Positions 1,444 to 16,580 of a stretch of 17,735 nt of DNA are shown here, piece by piece. Below the pieces are notes generated by a model. That model made no database searches. It worked only from the letters and a program-made list of their open reading frames with translations, and was not told the origin of the DNA. Origin of the DNA: Candidatus Poribacteria bacterium (GTDB lineage Bacteria > Poribacteria > WGA-4E > WGA-3G); the NCBI GenBank assembly GCA_009835515.1, contig VXXH01000638.1, positions 1-17,735 on the forward strand, written 5' to 3'. Position numbers and translations under genes: made by a program. Each line of letters starts with the position of its first letter. Position 1 is the first letter of the stretch.

Positions 1444-3024
1444 CTACTTTAATTTATGCAGTTCCCTGAGTTTGTCTAACACAACCTTATTCCCCGGTTC
1501 CAATTCCAAAACCCGTTCAAAAGCACCAATCGCCTCCGGAATATTTCCAAGTTCCTGATAAGCAACGCCTAATGCACCGTATGCGCGAACGTGCGTCGCC
1601 TCAATTGCGATCACCTTTTTAAACAGTGAGATGGCTTCGAGATAATCCTTCTTTGTCAGAAAAATTAAGCCGAGTCTGTAAATGGCTTGGACGTCCGTTG
1701 CGTCATGGGTGATGACCTGTTTGTAGTGTGGCTCGGCTGCTGTATAACGTTGTTTTTTCCAATAGACACCGGCAAGCGCGCGATGCGCCGACAGTTGAGA
1801 TGGCACGAGTTCAAGTGCTGCCTGATAGTGCCGAATTGCCTCGCCAAGCTGTCCTGTGTTCTCATACACTGTCGCAAGATTCGCGTGTACATTTGAAAAA
1901 AACGTGGCGTAATCTGAAGGGTTTAACTGTCCGTGAGATTCGCTATCTGTTATATTTTTTTTAAACTGAAGTGCCATTCGGCAAGCACGGATCGCTGCAG
2001 CGGTCTGTCCGGTTTCATAATAGATCTGTCCTATATAGTTATGCGCCTGCGCTTTCAAGTAGGCTCTCTCGTCTGTACTTCTCTGCTTCTGAATCTCTAT
2101 ATCCTTGTCGAGTAGCAACAGGAGATGTTCTAACACCGCTAAGGCTTCGTGGTGCTGTGCTGTGTAGAGGAGTGAAACGCCATAGTCGAACCAGACCTTT
2201 ATATCTTTCTGTTCGTCTGAGATAAGCGTCTCAAATTCAGCGACAGCACTTGTATAATCGCCTTCTGACATATAACGTCTACCGCGTTCGGCGTACAACG
2301 CTGCAGTGACACCCGCCTGCAGCACATCCCACCACAGCGGGTCCGATAACTCGCCATATTGACTCGGAGAGCGTGCTGCTTGTGCGTGTCGTTTTGCCGC
2401 TTGCTTATCCCCTAATGCTGTAACAATCTGTGCCATCAATGCGTGCGCTTCACTTTGCCTCGGATTCAGGCGGAGTGCGTTCTCTAAATGTCTTTTGGCA
2501 AGTTTCAATTGTTGTCTTGCAAGTGCGATTTCGCCGAGCCAGAGTTCAGAAAACGGGTTGCTCGGTTGCAGGTGTTTCGCGCGTTCCAAGTGATGTCTCG
2601 CATCTTCAAGCTTCCCTAAAATTCGGAGCGCAGAAGCAAGGTAGAGATGCGCGGGCGCGTATTCAGCGTTCAACATAAGTGCTCGCGTGAGATGTTTGAC
2701 TGCTTCCTCCGGTTGACGCTCCTTCGTCAAACGTCCCAAAAAGTAGAACCATCTGAATTCCTTAGGCGCGAGTAGACTCGCTCGACGATAACACGGTATC
2801 GCTGGTGTCTCCCAACCGTGGATGAGATAGACGTGCGCCAATTGACCCCAGACATCCGCGTCATCAGGAAAATTCTGGACAGCCTCTTGTGCAATTTCAA
2901 TTGCCTCCAAAAGCAATTTCTCCTCAACTAAGTCGAGGTCTGCAGGTTGTGGAATATCAATATTACGATCCGCAAATACAAAGCTACTCGTCAGAATTAG
3001 GAGAAGATAGAGAATCTGTTTCAT
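1444..3024 (-). CDS. Exported tetratricopeptide (TPR) repeat protein
   Basis: A 526-residue protein. I start at ATG 3024 because GGAGA lies eight bases upstream; an in-frame TTG one codon earlier (3027) is less well placed. The N-terminus KQILYLLLILTSSFVFA is a signal peptide, cleaved near residue 19. The rest is helical TPR: an N-terminal array (about residues 30-220, e.g. ADVWGQLAHVYLIHGW, APAHLYLASALRILGK), a central segment with SEGDYTSAVAEFETL, and a C-terminal array to the end (HANLATVYENTGQLGEAI, VQAIYRLGLIFLTKKDYLEA, VRAYGALGVAYQELGN). I count roughly ten to eleven repeats. TPR solenoids are protein-protein scaffolds. The start lies inside the end of the FG-GAP/ASPIC gene (41-base overlap), so the two are probably translationally coupled and work together outside the cytoplasm. 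Partner and role are unknown. Confidence 0.88.
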   Translation of the reverse strand: MKQILYLLLILTSSFVFADRNIDIPQPADLDLVEEKLLLEAIEIAQEAVQNFPDDADVWGQLAHVYLIHGWETPAIPCYRRASLLAPKEFRWFYFLGRLTKERQPEEAVKHLTRALMLNAEYAPAHLYLASALRILGKLEDARHHLERAKHLQPSNPFSELWLGEIALARQQLKLAKRHLENALRLNPRQSEAHALMAQIVTALGDKQAAKRHAQAARSPSQYGELSDPLWWDVLQAGVTAALYAERGRRYMSEGDYTSAVAEFETLISDEQKDIKVWFDYGVSLLYTAQHHEALAVLEHLLLLLDKDIEIQKQRSTDERAYLKAQAHNYIGQIYYETGQTAAAIRACRMALQFKKNITDSESHGQLNPSDYATFFSNVHANLATVYENTGQLGEAIRHYQAALELVPSQLSAHRALAGVYWKKQRYTAAEPHYKQVITHDATDVQAIYRLGLIFLTKKDYLEAISLFKKVIAIEATHVRAYGALGVAYQELGNIPEAIGAFERVLELEPGNKVVLDKLRELHKLK

Positions 3025-4774
3025 CAAAATGGTCTCCCTTTCCTTGATAAACTTTTACACGTCGATTCGCAGGTGTCCCTGGGAATCTTTCGCGGCTTCC
3101 GTCTTGCCAATACACGTCAATCGCTTGAATTTCACTGATCGTTCCCAACCCGAAATGCACATTCGGTTCGCTACTACTCAGATAACTCGTTCCAGACAGC
3201 ACATAGCCTGTCAATGTCCGTGATTCAGTTTGGAGCGTTACTTGTGCACCGAGTGCGTCTCGATTTTCGGTGATAGCTTGCACAAATAACCAATGATGCT
3301 GAGGCGGCGGTGCGTCGTTTCGGAAAACGCGAAGCCGATTATCAAGACTGCTCACCACCATATCAATATCGCCATCCCGGTCAATATCACCGAAAGCCAT
3401 TCCACGGCTCACCTCAACCCGTTCTGTAAAGTCAGGCGCACGTGAACTCACATCGCTGAAATGGGCTGTCGGAAACCCTCGGCGACCTTCAGTGGTCGTA
3501 GGGGTTGGGTTGCCCCCCCCATGCGGACGAGGCAACCTCACCCCTACGACGGCTGATTGCTGATTGCTATTTTGAAAGAGGAGATTGGGTTCGGCATAAA
3601 AATTCCAGAATTCGCCAACATCTGCGCCATCCAAGATCTCCCCGCGCTTCACCCTCCCATTAACGAGCGCGATGTCAAGATCGGCATCGTTGTCGAAATC
3701 AAGGAAACCGCATCCAAAGCCTGTCCAACGCAGGTCGCGTCCGGCGAAACCTGCTATTTCAGTCATATCAGTGAATACAGAGTGCTTAGCGGCGATATAA
3801 AGGGTATTTGTCTCGCCGGATAAGTGCGTTGCGAACAGGTCAGGAAGTGTATCACCGTTGATATCCCCGACAGCGATGCCCATGCTGCCTTCAGGGTGTC
3901 CGTAAGCGTTAAACGCAAGCCCATGCAATATGGCTTCCTCAGCAAAAGTGCCGTCGGTCTGGTTTACCCAGAGATAGTTCGCTTCGCCATCGTTGGCAAC
4001 AAAAAAATCCGCCCAACCATCACCCGTCAGATCCAGGCACACCACACCGAGACCTCTGCCGGACATTGCGGCGATACCTGTCTGCTCGGTCACATCTGTG
4101 AAAGAACCGTTGCCGTTATTTTGGAACAGACGATCTGTTGCAGGCTCGAAGACTTTTGGATTACAATAATCTGGCGCGCTGTGTTTCCCGCGACACACCA
4201 TTTCTGGATCAAATTGAACGTAGTTCGCAACATAGAGATCGAGGTCTCCATCCCTGTCGTAATCACCAAAGGTTGCGGATGTTCCCCAAGCCTCATTTGA
4301 GAGACCTACCTCTTCTAATATGAATGTACCGTCCCCCTTGTTTCGATAGAAAACATCGGGACCGTAATTCGTCACATAGACATCTACGTCGCCATCATTA
4401 TCAACATCACCGATTGCCACGCCTTGCCCGTAGCCTTCGTGTCCGATGCCAGCGGTTTCCGTGACGTCAACAAACGTTCCATCGGATTGTTGTTGAAAAA
4501 GCAGATTCGGGGCAGGTGAGTCCTCTTTGCCGGGTGGTGGAAATCGGATGTGTAGGACATCCAGCGCGCCATCATTATTGTAATCAAAGAGTGCAACTCC
4601 GCTCCCGATGACCTCAGGTAGGGCATGCGTGCCTGCAGCCCAAGAAGCCTCCGTCTGTGAGAAACCGAGCGCAGCCGTCACTTCCGTAAATAGGGGTTTG
4701 TCGGCCTCTGCTTGTGCTGTCCACAGAAGGCCGATTACAACGGAGAGCGTAATAACGTATAGTTTCGTAAACAT
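2984..4774 (-). CDS. Secreted FG-GAP/VCBS beta-propeller with C-terminal ASPIC/UnbV domain (CRTAC1-like)
   Basis: A 596-residue protein with a signal peptide (TKLYVITLSVVIGLLWTAQA, cleaved near residue 22). Seven calcium-binding DxDxDG-like loops can be read: DYNNDGALD, DVDNDGDVD, DYDRDGDLD, DLTGDGWAD, DINGDTLPD, DFDNDADLD and DIDRDGDID. Seven loops fit a seven-bladed propeller of the integrin-alpha/FG-GAP type. The last ~85 residues form an ASPIC/UnbV domain (DALGAQVTL, SGTSYLSSSEPNVHFGLG, IDVYWQDGSRERF), the architecture of CRTAC1 proteins. The family is extracellular and thought to bind protein or glycan; no enzyme activity is established. Residues about 402-426 come from a palindromic repeat inserted in frame (see 3495-3550), between blades six and seven. 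The gene follows the ATP-grasp gene by 28 bases and overlaps the TPR gene downstream. Confidence 0.92.
   Translation of the reverse strand: MFTKLYVITLSVVIGLLWTAQAEADKPLFTEVTAALGFSQTEASWAAGTHALPEVIGSGVALFDYNNDGALDVLHIRFPPPGKEDSPAPNLLFQQQSDGTFVDVTETAGIGHEGYGQGVAIGDVDNDGDVDVYVTNYGPDVFYRNKGDGTFILEEVGLSNEAWGTSATFGDYDRDGDLDLYVANYVQFDPEMVCRGKHSAPDYCNPKVFEPATDRLFQNNGNGSFTDVTEQTGIAAMSGRGLGVVCLDLTGDGWADFFVANDGEANYLWVNQTDGTFAEEAILHGLAFNAYGHPEGSMGIAVGDINGDTLPDLFATHLSGETNTLYIAAKHSVFTDMTEIAGFAGRDLRWTGFGCGFLDFDNDADLDIALVNGRVKRGEILDGADVGEFWNFYAEPNLLFQNSNQQSAVVGVRLPRPHGGGNPTPTTTEGRRGFPTAHFSDVSSRAPDFTERVEVSRGMAFGDIDRDGDIDMVVSSLDNRLRVFRNDAPPPQHHWLFVQAITENRDALGAQVTLQTESRTLTGYVLSGTSYLSSSEPNVHFGLGTISEIQAIDVYWQDGSRERFPGTPANRRVKVYQGKGDHFDETDSLSSPNSDE
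3495..3550. repeat. Palindromic element inserted in frame in the FG-GAP gene
   Basis: The arms GTCGTAGGGGTTGGGTTGC (3495-3513) and GCAACCTCACCCCTACGAC (3532-3550) pair at 17 of 19 positions around an 18-base loop. A 7-bp direct repeat (TGATTGC, twice at 3553-3566) adjoins. On the coding strand it is read without stops as VVGVRLPRPHGGGNPTPT, low in hydrophobic core residues and unlike any propeller strand. A run of eight C (3513-3520) sits in it, a slippage-prone tract. The same GTAGGGGTTGGG motif recurs in the ATP-grasp gene, read in the same frame. Confidence 0.75.
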
Positions 4775-4791
4775 AGCGTCGTTCCAAAAGA

Positions 4792-4816
4792 AATCGGGGT
4801 TACTAATCCCTCCTAC
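4792..4816. repeat. Palindromic element supplying the ATP-grasp stop codon
   Basis: AATCGGGGTTACTAATCCCTCCTAC. The arms GGGGTT (4796-4801) and AATCCC (4805-4810) surround ACT. It shares AATCGGGGTTAC and CCCTCC with the copy at 5496-5520. On the coding strand it encodes the last residues CRRD of the ATP-grasp protein and its TAG stop (4803-4805), then continues into the 28-base gap before the FG-GAP start. Confidence 0.6.
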
Positions 4817-6113
4817 ACGGCAAAATCACAAACTCCAATTGCCGATGAGCTTCACGTAATGCCGTTTCTACTAACGCTGGCGTCTCGGCACGCGCGAAGA
4901 TGAAACCGAGATAGCGCGCCCCCTCTGGTAACGGCACCACTTCCCCACCAATCGGAATTGTGATACTGACTTCTACAATACCGTCTACGCGATGCGCATC
5001 TGTTTTGCCGCGGACTTCACCGAGAATACCAGCCTTCGGTACCGGAATCATCATAACCCCCGCGGCTTGCTGTTCTCGCTGTAACATCTCTACGGGTTGC
5101 CCAATGGCGTGTCGGATAACGAGTTCCTCCAGCGACATACCGGTTCCAAACCGAAGCGTCCTTGCACAGAGTCCGCCAATCGTCCGTGCCGCAATTTCGA
5201 TAAGATGTGCCCCGTTGTCATTATAACGCAACTCGGCGTGGACGGGGCCGTGTTGCAGTCCTAAGGCAGCGGCTGCCTCTGCTGTGGCGCGATGCAGCGC
5301 ATCCTGGACATTCATCGATAAACGAGAAGGTGTAACATAGAGCGTCTCCTCAAAAAAAGGACCTTCGAGCGGATCGGGTTTATCAAAGAGCGCGAGCACT
5401 TTAAGTTCACCGTCTAAGAGGATACCTTCCAATGCCACCTCTATTCCCGGAATATAGTCCTCAACAAGCAGATATTGTGAAGCGTGCACCAAGGAATCGG
5501 GGTTACAAACCCCTCCCCCGTTGGTATCATCCTTCAAAGTGTGGAGCAGTTTCGTTGTCCGCTGAAAGGCTTCGATAAATTCGGTAGGTGTGTCTGCACG
5601 GATGACGCCACGGCTTGCGGAAAGAGAGAGGGGTTTGATGACACACGGCAAACCGACTTGTGTATCCGTAGGATTGGATGACCCAACCCCTACGATTTCA
5701 GCGGGGTCATCATAGATAGAGAAGCGTTGGTAAGCGAGTACCGATACCCCATTTGCTGCCAATGTGTCGCGTAAGAGATATTTATTGCGCGTGGCTTTTG
5801 CTGAAGCGACAGGGTTATGTGGCAGCCCTAAAGCCTGTGATGCAGTCGTCGCAAGCAGGGTTGTATCGTCATCGACACCGACAATTGCCGCCAGCGGATA
5901 TGTATCATCAAATTCGAGGATGGCCTGTGTTGCAACGGTTGGCGCGCTGAAGTCTAACACAAGGGTATGGCGCGGCGAGAGGTCTGCTGTCGTTGCGGCT
6001 TCTTCCGATGCCACGACGACCTCCACATCAAGTTTCGAGGCAGCATCAAGGAAATCAGCGGCTCGATATGTGCGTGTTGGCAGGAGCAGGAGGATACGCG
6101 ATTTATCAGTCAT
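4803..6113 (-). CDS. ATP-grasp domain ligase, substrate unknown
   Basis: A 436-residue member of the ATP-grasp superfamily (carboxylate-amine ligases and relatives), soluble, no signal peptide. Visible signatures are the N-terminal Rossmann-like part (RILLLLPTRTYRAADFLDAA, VVVASE, AIVGVDDDTTLLAT), the nucleotide-binding part GLPCVIKPLSLSASRGVIRA, LLVEDYIPGIEVALEGIL, and the metal/ATP-binding HAELRYNDNGAHLIEIAARTIGGL. A C-terminal domain with GARYLGFIFARA resembles those of L-amino acid ligase-like and CARNS-type enzymes. Two in-frame palindromic repeats lengthen surface loops near residues 140-150 and 199-207, and a third sets the C-terminus. The start ATG lies in a heptad repeat (TCAGTCATCAGTCATCA) with no visible ribosome binding site, so the true start could be slightly different. 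The substrate cannot be told from sequence. Confidence 0.85.
   Translation of the reverse strand: MTDKSRILLLLPTRTYRAADFLDAASKLDVEVVVASEEAATTADLSPRHTLVLDFSAPTVATQAILEFDDTYPLAAIVGVDDDTTLLATTASQALGLPHNPVASAKATRNKYLLRDTLAANGVSVLAYQRFSIYDDPAEIVGVGSSNPTDTQVGLPCVIKPLSLSASRGVIRADTPTEFIEAFQRTTKLLHTLKDDTNGGGVCNPDSLVHASQYLLVEDYIPGIEVALEGILLDGELKVLALFDKPDPLEGPFFEETLYVTPSRLSMNVQDALHRATAEAAAALGLQHGPVHAELRYNDNGAHLIEIAARTIGGLCARTLRFGTGMSLEELVIRHAIGQPVEMLQREQQAAGVMMIPVPKAGILGEVRGKTDAHRVDGIVEVSITIPIGGEVVPLPEGARYLGFIFARAETPALVETALREAHRQLEFVILPCRRD
5496..5520. repeat. Palindromic element inserted in frame in the ATP-grasp gene (copy 1)
   Basis: GGGGTT (5499-5504) and AACCCC (5508-5513) form a perfect palindrome around ACA, with flanking AATC and TCCC as in the copy at 4792-4816. 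On the coding strand it reads GGGVCNPD at about residues 200-207, between the helix ending KLLHTLKDD and the strand YLLVEDYIPG, where family members usually have a short loop. Confidence 0.6.
5667..5694. repeat. Palindromic element inserted in frame in the ATP-grasp gene (copy 2)
   Basis: CGTAGGATTGG (5667-5677) and CCAACCCCTACG (5683-5694) form an imperfect palindrome of the same GTAGGGGTTGGG family as 3495-3550. The coding strand reads VGVGSSNPT at about residues 141-149, the same frame (VGV...NPT) used by the copy in the FG-GAP gene. It lies in a loop just before GLPCVIKP. Confidence 0.6.
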
Positions 6114-6248
6114 CAGTCATCAATTATTGGTTATCAAAGTAATTAGTTTTCAGTCATCAGTTATCAGAAGTTGAAAGTTGAGAAGTTGCGAAGTTGTGCC
6201 TTACTTTCTAACTTTCGCACACTTCCTAACTTTCTGATTGTTCTCACT
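6104..6248. repeat. Heptad repeat and inverted-repeat region upstream of the ATP-grasp gene
   Basis: Starts with TCAGTCATCAGTCATCA across the ATP-grasp start, followed by TTTTCAGTCATCAGTTATCAG (period 7). It continues into an imperfect inverted repeat made of AAGTTG units on the left (6170-6200) and CTAACTTTC units on the right (6208-6238). No coding sequence is supported. This fills the 162-base gap to the aldolase stop. Confidence 0.6.
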
Positions 6249-7350: not shown

Positions 7351-7370
7351 CATTACGGACTACGGTTTTA

Positions 7371-7500
7371 GTTATCAGTTATCGGTCATCAGTTTGCCTC
7401 ACAGTGAGAGTTACAAGAGGTTTTTGATAATTCCAACATCTCCTGTAACTGATGACTGAAAGGATTTTTTGAAAAAAATCCGTACTGACAACTGAGAACT
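7371..7500. repeat. MITE-like repeat R1 between priA and the aldolase gene
   Basis: The left end GTTATCAGTTATCGGTCATCAGT and the right end ACTGATGACTGAAAG...ACTGACAACTGAG are inverted relatives of each other. The core 7390-7470 aligns without gaps to 16472-16552, at about 70 of 81 positions by hand, with most differences transitions. A near-perfect A/T hairpin (GGATTTTTT at 7462-7470, AAAAAATCC at 7473-7481) sits near the right end. No open frame is supported. It ends four bases from the priA stop. Confidence 0.7.
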
Positions 7501-7504
7501 ATCC

Positions 7505-9622
7505 TTAGAGTGTATTTGTTGGGTCAATATCTATCACAAATTCAATAGCCTTTGATTTTATGATGCTTGGTGGTTCGTCAGTAAAACGCTTAAAGAGTCT
7601 CCCTATCTTTTCAGCATCGGTACTTCGGAGCAAGAGATGCCACCGAAATTTCCCTTCAATTTTTGAGAGTGGTGCCGGTGCGGGTCCGAGGATCTCCACC
7701 GATGTATCTTCAACAGTGGGAACCTGTGAAGCGTGTTCTCGGGCCTCCTGCCAAATTTCGAGTTGATCTCGTGCAGCATGTGCGGCATCAATAACGGCTT
7801 GTTCGTCTTTGCCTCGGAGTAAGAGGGTCGCAACGTGAGCGAAAGGTGGATACCGTAGCGCGTCCCGTGCGACGACCTCCTGGGCATAGAAATCGAGGTA
7901 GTCGTGTTTCTGTGCTGCCTCTATACAGTAGTGCTCAGGCATATAGGTTTGGATGACGACCTTGCCTTCAAGTTCCGCGCGTCCAGAACGTCCTGCAACT
8001 TGTGTGAGTAGGCTGAACGTCTGTTCGCTTGCTCGGAAATCAGGAAGATTCAAGCCGGTATCCGCTGCGATAACCCCGACAAGAGTGACGTTCGGGAAGT
8101 CCAACCCCTTCGACACCATCTGTGTGCCTATCAGGATATCAATTTTCTGCTGTTCAAATTCCGCTAAAATCTGTTGATGCGCGTTTTTCCGCGCCGTTGA
8201 ATCCGCATCAAACCGTTTCACACGTGCTTTCGGATATGCTTTGCGTACCTCTTGTTCAACTGCCTCCGTCCCTGCGCCAAAAAAGCGAATCGCATCACTA
8301 CTACACTGCGGACATGACTGTTGTGTCGGACGTTTGCTGCCGCAATGGTGGCAGACGAGCTGCTGCGTTTCACGGTGATAGGTGAGTGAGATAGAACAGT
8401 TGTTGCACCGTTCGACATAGCCACAGGTGCGGCAGAAGACATAAGTGGAGTGCCCACGCCGGTTAAGAAACAGGATAATTTGTTCTCGCCGCACCAGCCG
8501 CTCCTCAATGGAGCTTCGGAGCAGATCCGAGAAGATCGTCCGGTTCCCTTTTTTAAACTCGGTTCGCATATCAACGATGTGAACATCGGGCATTTTTCTA
8601 TTAAAAACACGGTCGGGTAGGTTGAGGAGTTGATAACGCCCGTTTCGTGCCCGATGGAAACTTTCAAGGGAGGGTGTCGCGCTTCCGAGTAGAACGGGGC
8701 ATTTTGCGAGGTCGCTCCGCTTCTGTGCGACTTCCCGTGCATGGTAGCGCGGCGCAGTATCCGATTTATAGGAATCCGAATGCTCCTCGTCCATAATCAG
8801 CATCCCAAGTTTTTGGACCGGGGCAAAGATAGCAGAGCGCGGTCCAATGACAATATCGGCTTCGCCCTTCTGGATGCGATGCCACTGGTCATAGCGTTCG
8901 CCGTCACTCAATCGGCTATGCAGCAAGGCGACACGCTCACCGAACCGCCCCACAAATCGAGAGGCAGTCTGCGGTGTGAGCGAAATCTCTGGGACCAATA
9001 CAATGACAGATCTGCCATTTTCAAGGACATCTGCCATCGCCTGCATATAGACCTCTGTTTTCCCGCTTCCGGTTACACCGTGAAGTAAAAAGGTTGGTGG
9101 TTGTTTAATACCGTTGTCCGAGACGGCTGCTGTGGTGTGTGATACCAGTACGTTTTTAATTTCCGTGAAGGCTGCGGATTGCGCGGAATTCAAGAGGAGT
9201 GGTTGCGTCGGCGCGACAGGTTCAAGACTCAATGGGTTCCGTACCGTTTCTGCCTGTACGATATGAATAAACCCGTGTCTTTCAAGGGTCCGTAGCAGCG
9301 AAATACTGGCGTTTACTCGCTTCATTAAGTCTGTTGTTGCCAAAGGTGCCCCTTCATCAAGAAGGAATTGCAGAATCTCTGCCCGCTTGACATCGGCAGC
9401 ATGGAGGCGGTTAGCTGAACGCTGTGGGTCCGCATTGTCGTGAACGTCCGAGGTTTCATTTTTGAGCTGCTGAATCGCCATCTCAACATCAGCAGTTGGT
9501 AAAGCTAATTGCGCGACAGTGGTTTTTTGTGTGGTAGCCTTCGGTTTATGCGTAACATTGGTCTCAACAACACCTTTTTCGCGGAGTCTCCTGATTCGCG
9601 AACGGACATCTTGAGCGCTCAA
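7505..9622 (-). CDS. priA: Primosomal helicase PriA, C-terminal part (helicase and zinc domains)
   Basis: PriA is the 3'-5' DNA helicase that restarts stalled replication forks. This 705-residue frame holds its helicase part: Walker A GVTGSGKT (182-189), Walker B DEEH (278-281), GSATPSLES (313-321), and eight zinc-ligand cysteines in the PriA pattern (CRTC, CNNC, CHHC, CPQC, residues 397-440). The late motifs GTQMVSKGLDFPNVTLVGV and QVAGRSGR follow. TTG 9622 is only the first possible start and has no ribosome binding site. The same frame runs on upstream as FNQIARRTG before meeting TAG (9650-9652) and TAA (9656-9658), beyond which it continues as the N-terminal part. Either the gene is broken, the stops are read through, or the parts are made separately. 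Length with both parts, about 855 codons, is slightly long for PriA. Confidence 0.9.
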   Translation of the reverse strand: MSAQDVRSRIRRLREKGVVETNVTHKPKATTQKTTVAQLALPTADVEMAIQQLKNETSDVHDNADPQRSANRLHAADVKRAEILQFLLDEGAPLATTDLMKRVNASISLLRTLERHGFIHIVQAETVRNPLSLEPVAPTQPLLLNSAQSAAFTEIKNVLVSHTTAAVSDNGIKQPPTFLLHGVTGSGKTEVYMQAMADVLENGRSVIVLVPEISLTPQTASRFVGRFGERVALLHSRLSDGERYDQWHRIQKGEADIVIGPRSAIFAPVQKLGMLIMDEEHSDSYKSDTAPRYHAREVAQKRSDLAKCPVLLGSATPSLESFHRARNGRYQLLNLPDRVFNRKMPDVHIVDMRTEFKKGNRTIFSDLLRSSIEERLVRREQIILFLNRRGHSTYVFCRTCGYVERCNNCSISLTYHRETQQLVCHHCGSKRPTQQSCPQCSSDAIRFFGAGTEAVEQEVRKAYPKARVKRFDADSTARKNAHQQILAEFEQQKIDILIGTQMVSKGLDFPNVTLVGVIAADTGLNLPDFRASEQTFSLLTQVAGRSGRAELEGKVVIQTYMPEHYCIEAAQKHDYLDFYAQEVVARDALRYPPFAHVATLLLRGKDEQAVIDAAHAARDQLEIWQEAREHASQVPTVEDTSVEILGPAPAPLSKIEGKFRWHLLLRSTDAEKIGRLFKRFTDEPPSIIKSKAIEFVIDIDPTNTL

Positions 9623-12752: not shown

Positions 12753-13935
12753 GTCTATTACCCTTTTTCTTTGTGTGATTTTTTATGAGTGAATTTGCTG
12801 TTGCTTTTGCCCACCGATCTGCCTCAAGGATATCCGTGAGTGTTGGGTCTGGAACGACTGTGTGCTTATCCATCACATGTCCGAGGATAACCGGTATATC
12901 CATAAACCCGATGTCCGCGTTAAGAAACGCCTCGACGACGATCTCATCTGCGCTGCTTAATACCACGGGGAGTGTGCCACCAACGTCTGCGGCGGTATAA
13001 GCCAGCGAGAGACACGGAAACTTTTCAAAGTCAACAGGTTCAAAGTGTAGTGTGCGCGCCTCCTGTAGATCCAGACGTGGCACTGGTGCGGAGAGTCTAC
13101 GCGGATAAGTTAAAGCGTATTGAATCATAATACGCATATCTGTAGGACCTAATTGTGCGAGTGTAGAACCGTCTGCCCACTCTACCATAGAATGAACGAT
13201 ACTCTCCGGGTGGACAACAACGTCAATTTTTGAGAGTTCTATATTAAACAACCATTTCGCTTCGATGACCTCCAGCCCTTTGTTCATCATCGTTGCGGAA
13301 TCAATAGTAATTTTCGGTCCCATCTTCCAATTCGGGTGCTGGAGTGCTTGTGCTGGCGTTACAGAATAGAGTTCGGCTTTCGGCACCTTTCGGAAGGGGC
13401 CGCCAGAAGCCGTAATCAGGAGTCGATGGATATCTGCCTGTTGGTCGCGTGCGCCTTCCAAACATTGGAAGATAGCACTCATTTCGCCATCTATCGGTAT
13501 TAAGTTAACGCCATTTGTTTTAACCGCTGCGTTAACAAGCGGTCCCGCCATGACCATTACCTCCTTATTAACGAAAGCGATGTCTTTCCCCGCGTTGATC
13601 GCTGCCAAAGTTGGTAACAAGCCTGCGCTACCGCCCATCCCCTCCAAAATTTGGGAGGCTTGTGGCATTGTCGCTACGGCTTGAAGCCCCTCGGTGCCAG
13701 CGAGTATTTCTGTCCCATTGATGTCCCGAATACGCGCTCGAAGTATCCCCGCCGCGGTAGGTTCATTTACCGCCACCAACGCCGGACGATACCGCCGAAT
13801 CTGTTGTTCAAGGGTATCAACGTCTCGGTTCGCTGCGATGCCGACGACTTTAAATTCGTCAGCATGCGTTTCAACAACGCTGAGGGCGTTCTTTCCAATA
13901 GAACCCGTGCTACCGAGTATGGCGATATGCTTCAT
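12736..13935 (-). CDS. dxr: 1-deoxy-D-xylulose 5-phosphate reductoisomerase
   Basis: Second step of the MEP isoprenoid pathway: DXP plus NADPH to MEP. The 399-residue protein opens with the NADPH-binding GSTGSIG (8-14). Active-site features visible are K124 in VNKE, SGGPF (177-181), H200 in HPNW, DSATMMNKGLE (212-222) with E222 and E225, and VHPESIVHSM (241-250). Oddities: the metal-binding motif normally written DSEH is DGEM here (149-152), keeping the acidic ligands but losing the serine and histidine; and the usual NAANE near the C-terminal domain is SSADE. All other key positions look intact, so an active but slightly atypical enzyme is likely. The ATG is three bases from a heptad-repeat tract and lacks a ribosome binding site. 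Its end overlaps rseP. Confidence 0.95.
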   Translation of the reverse strand: MKHIAILGSTGSIGKNALSVVETHADEFKVVGIAANRDVDTLEQQIRRYRPALVAVNEPTAAGILRARIRDINGTEILAGTEGLQAVATMPQASQILEGMGGSAGLLPTLAAINAGKDIAFVNKEVMVMAGPLVNAAVKTNGVNLIPIDGEMSAIFQCLEGARDQQADIHRLLITASGGPFRKVPKAELYSVTPAQALQHPNWKMGPKITIDSATMMNKGLEVIEAKWLFNIELSKIDVVVHPESIVHSMVEWADGSTLAQLGPTDMRIMIQYALTYPRRLSAPVPRLDLQEARTLHFEPVDFEKFPCLSLAYTAADVGGTLPVVLSSADEIVVEAFLNADIGFMDIPVILGHVMDKHTVVPDPTLTDILEADRWAKATANSLIKNHTKKKGNRHGILD

Positions 13936-13937
13936 TA

Positions 13938-14052
13938 GTTGTCAGTTGTCAGTTGTCAGTTATCAGTTATCAGTCACTTTTAAAAATCCACTCCAACTTG
14001 GCGCGCCTCAAGAATTAGTGAATTGTTACATCAAAACCGCCTCACTGAAAAC
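13938..14052. repeat. Heptad repeat tract between cdsA and dxr
   Basis: Five consecutive 7-bp units on the + strand, GTTGTCA three times then GTTATCA twice (13938-13972), begin three bases upstream of the dxr start codon. The inverse form CACTGAAAACTGAGG lies at the far end (14043-14057). No gene or ribosome binding site is visible in the 125-base gap. Confidence 0.75.
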
Positions 14053-14914: not shown

Positions 14915-15046
14915 GTTTTCAGTTCGGTTTTTCTGCGAAAACCTTTCAGTTATCGGCTATCAGTTAAGAGGCATGCTGCGGCAAGTCCAACAAAAACAAC
15001 TGCTACGAGTAGTTGACTAACAACTGATAACTGATAACCGAGAACC
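14915..15046. repeat. Heptad-repeat element with hairpin in the uppS slot between frr and cdsA
   Basis: TTTTCAGTTCGG and TTTCAGTTATCGGCTATCAGTTAAG (14939-14967 region) on one side, and AACAACTGATAACTGATAACCGAG (15019-15042) inverted on the other. The hairpin GGTTTTTC (14926-14933) with GAAAACC (14937-14943), one base bulged, belongs to the same class as those at 10096 and 11019. No open frame is present. Confidence 0.65.
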
Positions 15047-16434: not shown

Positions 16435-16452
16435 CCATCCTCCTTGTAATTG

Positions 16453-16580
16453 GTTGTCAGTTATCAGTTGTCAGTTTGCCTCGCAGTGAGAGTTACAAGA
16501 GGTTTTTGGTAATCCTAACATTTCTTGTGACTGATAACTGAAAGGACTTTGAAAAAAGCACACTGATGGCTGACGACTTA
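16453..16580. repeat. MITE-like repeat R2 between rpsB and tsf
   Basis: Begins with three heptads GTTGTCA, GTTATCA, GTTGTCA (16453-16473), continues with the 81-nt core shared with 7390-7470, and ends with the inverse heptad form GTGACTGATAACTGAAAGG followed by CACTGATGGCTGACGAC. The A/T hairpin seen in R1 is decayed here. No open frame is supported. It starts 19 bases upstream of the tsf start codon, just beyond its ribosome binding site. Confidence 0.7.

Follow-up and report, generated by a model that had tools for sequence, protein, structure and literature searches.

The question raised by the DNA analysed here was why two unrelated proteins of a sponge-dwelling member of the Poribacteria contained short palindromic repeats read in frame as part of their sequence. 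The window, i.e., the whole stretch of 17,735 nt, was contig VXXH01000638.1 of assembly GCA_009835515.1 (C264 in our numbering; the source genome comprises 881 contigs, 4.85 Mb in total). An initial annotation, made from the letters alone, had proposed four related palindromes, one within an FG-GAP gene and three within an ATP-grasp gene or at its 3' end, forming a mobile element that acted as a harmless in-frame peptide. It was concluded that the repeats were probably short, non-autonomous repetitive extragenic palindromic (REP) elements of the GTAG type, moved by Y1 transposases of the REP-associated tyrosine transposase (RAYT) kind and kept in genes only if they lay in frame in permissive loops.

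Palindromes of the window

All four palindromes were found close to the positions proposed. They were related within pairs, A with B (family F1) and C with D (family F2), but did not form one set. The identified genes of the palindrome-bearing stretch all lay on the minus strand:

2984..4774, minus strand: FG-GAP_3/UnbV_ASPIC gene (Pfam), carrying copy A
3498..3547, minus strand: copy A, a 50-nt composite whose left half is F1 and whose right half comes from a sister palindrome, inside the FG-GAP/UnbV_ASPIC protein, read as VGVRLPRPHGGGNPTPT
4796..4816, minus strand: copy D, an F2 element that overlaps the ATP-grasp gene at its 3' end, where it encodes the last residues (..RRD, in a protein ending ..CRRD) and the TAG stop
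4803..6113, minus strand: ATP-grasp ligase gene (Pfam: ATP-grasp_4, LAL_C2, ATPgrasp_N); closest solved structure by sequence, the BL00235 L-amino acid ligase (3vot)
5499..5519, minus strand: copy C, an F2 element with a mutated GTAG foot, read as GGGVCNPD in the ATP-grasp protein
5668..5693, minus strand: copy B, a 26-nt F1 palindrome with a damaged 3' arm (coding strand), read as VGVGSSNPT in the ATP-grasp protein

Family F1 was a 27-nt GTAG palindrome, CGTAGGGGYTGGGT n ACCCARCCCCTACG (consensus GTAGGGGYTGGGTnACCCARCCCCTAC), and family F2 a 21-nt palindrome, GTAGGAGGGGTTTnTAACCCC. Copies A and B both began GTA GGG GT and were read in the same frame (VGV..NPT), as had been noticed. An open frame ran straight through each of the copies A, B and C, also in agreement with the annotation, and copy D, which supplied the stop, was scored as frame-changing. 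Copy A had GTAG..CTAC termini and a hairpin of -37.7 kcal/mol, computed as RNA. The sister palindrome in its right half, GTAGGGACGAGG..CCTCGCCCCTAC, stood alone in contig C619 of the source genome, and a composite of the same kind recurred in contig C329. When the whole window was scanned for inverted repeats with arms of 11 nt and no more than one mismatch, 11 hits were obtained, where 20 Markov controls gave 0-8; the palindrome copies did not stand out.

Orthologues with and without the inserts

At the level of sequence, the orthologues proved that 27 nt had been inserted in frame in a loop of the ATP-grasp protein. Matches were found in 56 of 84 genomes and 30 loci were compared; the 20 named loci with relatives of the protein came from Candidatus Poribacteria (19) and Acidobacteria (1). 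At the place of copy B (site B), locus L078 read GAA ATC, then the insert GTAGGGGTTGGG TTA CCCAACCCCTAC, then AGC ACG, versus an uninterrupted GAA ATT AGC ACA in the sister-genus loci L091-L093. The pattern GTAGGGGTTGGG..ACCCAACCCCTAC was present there in both L078 and L080, the latter with one centre change, and L091-L098 had no insert. The stretch of copy B was 6 nt shorter than these two fuller copies, and other orthologues had fuller or decayed versions. A longer version in L085 resembled the source-genome copy L021 in its middle, L074 carried a partial tandem, and a different palindrome (F9) was nested inside the insert of L076. At the place of copy C, GTAGGAGGGGTTTCTAACCCC was present in L071 and absent from L073, L074 and others; F2 occupied this site in part of the clade of the source genome and was absent elsewhere. 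The loop peptide was absent from the two more distant relatives whose loop was compared, L145 (Poribacteria, 61% identity) and L146 (Acidobacteria).

When the ATP-grasp sequence was aligned with that of 3vot (BL00235), copies B and C both fell in gaps. In an AlphaFold model of the ATP-grasp protein (18 sequences, mean predicted local distance difference test score (pLDDT) 82, predicted template modelling score 0.83), copy B corresponded to residues 141-149 within the coil 141-156. Copy C corresponded to about residues 199-206 within 198-208, the least confident stretch (pLDDT <50; coil to 204). The model was thus consistent with the earlier placing of both inserts in loops.

The loop stretch of the FG-GAP gene measured 216 nt in the window and 129 nt in L127, an orthologue that is almost empty. 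Among the 27 of 30 loci parsed, its length ranged from 129 nt to 258 nt (L117), always in multiples of three by construction, because the parsing was done in translation. The copy-A palindrome was found intact or decayed in 4 genomes, the F4 repeat (ETPKQKH-like peptides) in 5, and AATCAGCAATCAGCC-like repeats in many. Judged from the sequences compared, this loop is hypervariable. The AATCAGCAATCAGCC units of the relatives were similar to TCAG-type runs of TCAGTTATCAGTT-like units in the window, which were mostly intergenic (6105-6169, 7367-7394, 13934-13975, 14938-14965 and 16449-16476).

Two further proteins had loops with the same elements. For LarA_N, 30 orthologues were compared of 35 found. 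The loop was empty (LVExxYELI) in 20, carried F1, read (L/I)VGAGxPSPYELI, in 6, and carried a related longer variant in 4. Among loci L407-L436, 13 of the 20 empty genes had GTAG exactly where the insert begins in the carriers, and 5 read GTAG-N7-CTAC. By eye, no target-site duplication, a criterion for miniature inverted-repeat transposable elements, was seen at the empty sites of ATP-grasp and LarA_N. The second protein, PriA, is also encoded in the window:

7505..9622, minus strand: PriA helicase open reading frame, whose linker before Walker A had no recognisable F1 or F2 in the window

This linker precedes the helicase core, and the alignment with 4nl4 begins at residue 170. Of 36 PriA orthologues found, 30 were fetched and 28 parsed (G077 and G069 were dropped, having no parsed linker). 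In these other species the linker contained F2 in 11 cases, another palindromic repeat, F8, in 6, and F1 in one, which stood next to an empty sister.

Recurrent occupancy of the same loops

Site B of ATP-grasp was filled in 13 of 30 loci. On the gene tree this pattern required 6 changes, and the approximately unbiased (AU) test rejected the grouping of all carriers in one clade (p = 2e-62). The PriA linkers with F2 also required 6 changes (AU p = 9e-76 against a single clade), and LarA_N required 7 on a gene tree built without the loop (AU p = 7e-4); these counts do not separate gain from loss. At four-fold degenerate sites, the ATP-grasp inserts were identical at 186 of 220 positions versus 4135 of 8300 in the flanks (permutation p 2e-4 to 7e-4), and the LarA_N inserts at 90 of 90 versus 1205 of 2083. 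Only inserts found by orthology were used, and the comparison was conditional on VGVG or VGAG residues. A similar comparison in which the orthologous inserts came from a pattern search (62/64 versus 1428/2231) was rejected as biased, since both copies had been picked by their match to the consensus. Patchy occupancy together with little-diverged insert DNA points to repeated insertion, and the same loops appear to have been filled or emptied repeatedly in different species.

It was also considered that each site received one old insertion, inherited vertically, then lost in some lineages or spread by short-tract recombination, with no repeated insertion. Such a history would account for the D-P-x-E-I-V flanks shared by most insert-bearing ATP-grasp alleles, where several insert-free alleles of the main clade had D-A-x-E-I-A, and for the LarA_N residues NHRL, restricted to carriers and variants (4 genomes). 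Against it, the LarA_N carriers G051, G052 and G075 stood beside insert-free relatives (G051 and G052 at starred forks of the tree, G075 at 80/94) and mostly kept the flanking codons of those relatives, although G051 differed at two codons (HR for RH). Moreover, an old vertical insert should drift like its flanks, whereas the four-fold sites of the LarA_N and ATP-grasp inserts were far less diverged. Excision of one old insert at site B was rejected, as the insert-free allele of the main clade (AAKLGT) was not the expected excision product. As a general explanation, a single old insertion per site was judged rather unlikely; short tract exchange between species is possible for some cases, given the shared NHRL and DPxEI residues.

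Intragenic copies and their reading frame

The intragenic copies were counted in loci fetched by sequence pattern and not by gene, with 7 F1 and 6 F2 copies near locus ends excluded. Genes were recognised from a hexamer coding score and not from annotation. In frame inside genes were 32 of 131 F1 and 18 of 103 F2 copies; under the same settings, 1637 of 3000 random positions of genome G081 fell inside open genes. Genes are therefore avoided but not forbidden. The genes hit included those for PriA, PurH (AICARFT/IMPCHas), a valyl/class I tRNA synthetase (ValRS), an Omp85 protein, an aminotransferase, a hydantoinase, and WD40 and HEAT proteins. Out of 21 F1-bearing proteins searched against Pfam, 4 had no match at the cut-off used. 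Three further repeats were translated, namely F4 (5 of 54 in other loci, 0 of 26 in G081), F8 (6 of 10) and F9 (3 of 11), fractions that are not unbiased, as part of the loci were fetched by gene.

The F8 repeat was a palindromic ATCACGATGATCGTGAT element, read EARHHDDxDR or similar in several proteins (L002, L087, L131, L379). At one place, F2 occurred once in one species (L196) and as a tandem of two in another (L204), with an open frame (SGLQTPPTGRSGLQTPPTG). Loci L329 and L358 (G051 and G052) carried similar F1 insertions with an in-frame centre stop (TAQTTV[GE]AG*PSPYKEEIR), which may reflect read-through, a split gene or a pseudogene. Locus L178 had been considered as the same gene and was rejected as a different one.

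Two frames of F1 are usable, VGxGxPxPY (closed if the central base gives TAA or TGA) and RGWVTQPL; the third contains TAG. The 32 intragenic copies represented 25 unique sites after orthologous sites had been merged by eye, a merging borne out by clustering of the flanks. Among them, 19 were read as VGxGxPxPY, 4 as RGWVTQPL, and 2 in the TAG frame with the TAG mutated. The target bias, i.e., the pyrimidines before GTAG, predicts the VGxG frame at 0.53, or at 0.37 counting centre stops. The observed 19 of 23 departed from this expectation with p = 0.0036 after target bias and 8e-6 with centre stops counted. For F2, whose copies were not merged, the sense strand has one open frame, which was used by all 8 sense copies. 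The 10 antisense copies were read as GVTNPSY (4) or as SGLQTPPT-like peptides (6), and none used the remaining frame. The simplest reading of the bias is selection for Gly/Pro loops over a peptide bearing Trp and Arg. Insertion bias may also be a source of the F1 preference.

Selection could also act on the inserts themselves, if they were kept for a function of the peptide or hairpin (e.g., loop flexibility or mRNA structure) and purifying selection held the DNA sequence. The frame preference and the low synonymous-site divergence of the inserts would both be expected. In the ATP-grasp copies, however, the 3' arm decays while the 5' arm stays, hence the hairpin is not maintained. The same loops also accept unrelated repeats (F1, F2, F4, F8, F9 and TCAG repeats), and many species do without. 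Retention for function was consequently considered improbable.

Genomic dispersal and the link to RAYT genes

The palindromes recurred in the source genome and its relatives. In the source genome, a 19-mer of F2 gave 39 matches at no more than 3 mismatches and its reversed pattern none. The F1 27-mer gave 11 palindromes at the same threshold versus 0 in controls (copies A and B differ from each other by more than 3). The F1 14-mer alone was weaker evidence, with 24+23 matches versus 10+12 in the control. Of 38 genomes of the genus, 34 contained F1 (0-54 copies per genome) and every one contained F2 (11-210 copies); the reversed patterns gave 0 in each genome. Compensatory changes were seen in the stems of the listed copies, e.g., TTCGGT..ACCGAA and GGGATTTGTAATCCC. 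The consensus of both families had a GTAG foot, which the search patterns themselves contain. The bases 5' of the foot were pyrimidine-biased, TC or CC for F1 and mainly T at both positions for F2.

Genes for Y1 transposases (PF01797) numbered 4 in the source genome and 2-12 in each of five relatives; the count for G081 may include ordinary IS200 transposases. At 2 of 29 Y1 loci scanned, L260 and L261 (genomes G065 and G073), F2-like copies (at most 3 mismatches) bracketed the Y1/RAYT gene in inverted orientation. The F2-like copies beside RAYT genes often had GTGG, not GTAG, at the foot. A form related to F2, GTAGGTGCGGTTTnTAACCGC, was present at Y1 loci L256 and L066, and an F1-like sister family, GTAGGGGCGAGG, bracketed the RAYT gene L265 in G065. 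Hence, F2 shows the flanking of a RAYT gene with variants, and in the F1 group only the sister GTAGGGGCGAGG was seen on both sides of one. In the source genome (L065-L068), 3 of the 4 Y1 genes were near GTAG hairpins in the scan, and the hairpins differed between genes. The hairpin by L067, GTAGGAGCGAGCTGTGCTCGCGAT, presumably resembles the REP of Pseudomonas. The scan found no GTAG hairpin at L065, yet CCCCGTAGGGGTG repeats were seen on both sides in its sequence.

Taken together, F1 and F2 look like GTAG REPs of the RAYT type. The annotation had not recognised the sequence from the Rickettsia group; the palindromes are nonetheless not of an undescribed kind, as they carry the marks of GTAG REPs, which the part of PMC3733652 at hand describes as a superfamily with in-frame intragenic copies. 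Most copies in the Poribacteria lie outside genes.

Proposed mechanism and evidence against it

We proposed that Y1 transposases of the RAYT kind in the same genomes mobilise F1 and F2. The elements would land after pyrimidines, mostly between genes, and an intragenic copy would survive only with an open frame in a permissive loop. A whole F1 core of 27 nt would add 9 codons (VGVGLPNPY) and a whole F2 core of 21 nt would add 7 (VGGVxNPD or GVTNPSY), all Gly/Pro-rich. The insert-bearing proteins would be made and working, the inserts would be neutral, and selection against the other open frame would cause the frame bias.

Several results weigh against this proposal. F1 itself was not seen to bracket a RAYT gene among the 29 Y1 loci scanned, where only one-sided copies were present (L250 and L268). 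The LarA_N insert was 27 nt in place of about 15 nt of host sequence, a replacement that would not be expected from plain transposition, and the PriA gene of G074 versus that of G066 also fits about 15 nt replaced by 27. The replacement, together with the GTAG already present at empty sites, may mean that the target is recognised, or that the template is switched where feet match, and speaks less for simple insertion. In the LarA_N tree, shuffled labels needed 8.5 changes on average and 73 of 500 shuffles were as low as the observed count, so the clustering of carriers was not unusual; therefore, this tree says only that a single origin fails. A stop inside an otherwise continuous coding signal was brought by 5 F1 copies and 1 F2 copy, and 5 F1 and 11 F2 copies had coding signals of unlike frame on their two sides. 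Of 49 copies from seven REP families in 800 kb of G081, none was intragenic in frame; therefore, the intragenic habit varies by genome and family. The stops also bear on the earlier suggestion that the element was tuned to be a harmless peptide. The part of it that stands is the preference of intragenic F1 for the Gly/Pro frame (19:4); tuning itself is not needed, as the bias can be accounted for by selective retention.

In addition, the outcome recalls the palindromic elements of Rickettsia, in which, in the available part of PMC2229807, in-frame palindromes also occur in unrelated proteins. The annotation had drawn this parallel, and it was upheld in that mobile palindromes lie in frame in unrelated proteins whose insert-free orthologues exist. 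A Rickettsia-type element unrelated to REP and RAYT is nevertheless very improbable, given a length of 21-27 nt and not 105-146, the GTAG foot, and the F2-like copies bracketing RAYT genes. The motifs are short, but chance resemblance of Gly/Pro-rich loop codons to palindromes was dismissed as practically negligible by the 27-nt identity with intergenic copies, the controls of 0 and, decisively, the empty orthologous sites.

A stronger version of the proposed RAYT-driven movement is that certain loops of Poribacteria are standing landing sites, entered repeatedly and with a target preference by REPs as well as by three or more further repeat families. We regard this as doubtful. If true, it would be a natural diversification of loop length and loop sequence in proteins as basic as PriA.

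Without both filled and empty versions of one gene, it is difficult to tell if such insertion is a rare accident or supplies new protein sequence recurrently. The 37 other genomes of one genus offer both versions of the loops, several repeat families per site and a frame test, by which rate, target choice and cost become measurable. For those who build genes and phylogenies, the warning is that a shared loop insertion in Poribacteria is not reliable evidence of common ancestry.

Other features of the window

A 108-nt element was present in two copies, 84% alike, adjoining TCAG runs (7368-7475 and 16450-16557). Two similar adjacent genes, 79% alike over 300 nt, were located at 3-488 and 563-1333.

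Comparison with known systems

The REPINs and RAYT of Pseudomonas and E. coli have a GTAG foot, and their Y1 transposase gene is flanked by its own REPs. We know of no recurrent insertion of these REPINs in coding loops.

The GTAG REPs of PMC3733652 (BMC Genomics 2013, 14:522), as far as the part of that paper at hand describes them, share with F1 and F2 a palindrome of 20-40 nt, the GTAG foot, dispersal mostly between genes, the link to RAYT and the translation of some copies in open reading frames. Their termini sometimes supply a TAG stop. In-frame intragenic copies were known there, many in replication and repair genes, and recB of two Xanthomonas species was hit at about the same site. 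A comparison of filled versus empty orthologues across dozens of species, a recurrence test and a frame-bias test were not found in the same part, and the word "Poribacteria" had 0 occurrences in PMC3733652. No paper on REP elements in Poribacteria was among the matches listed, which is not proof that none exists; one Poribacteria paper matching "rayt" was discarded, as the match was an author name and not the element.

The palindromic elements of Rickettsia, in the available part of PMC2229807, likewise occur in frame, and are translated, inside unrelated proteins that are often conserved. They differ in having 105-146 nt and a long stem, with no link to GTAG or RAYT seen there, in contrast to the 21-27-nt cores and the 50-nt composite found here. 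The coding palindromes of Nematomorpha mitochondria (PMC6649704, seen in part) are also inverted repeats in coding sequence and differ in being mitochondrial, up to 284 bp long and of other origin. As far as the literature searched goes, what is new here is the phylum, the insertion demonstrated against empty orthologues in many species, the recurrent occupancy of loops by one or several repeat families, and the frame bias.

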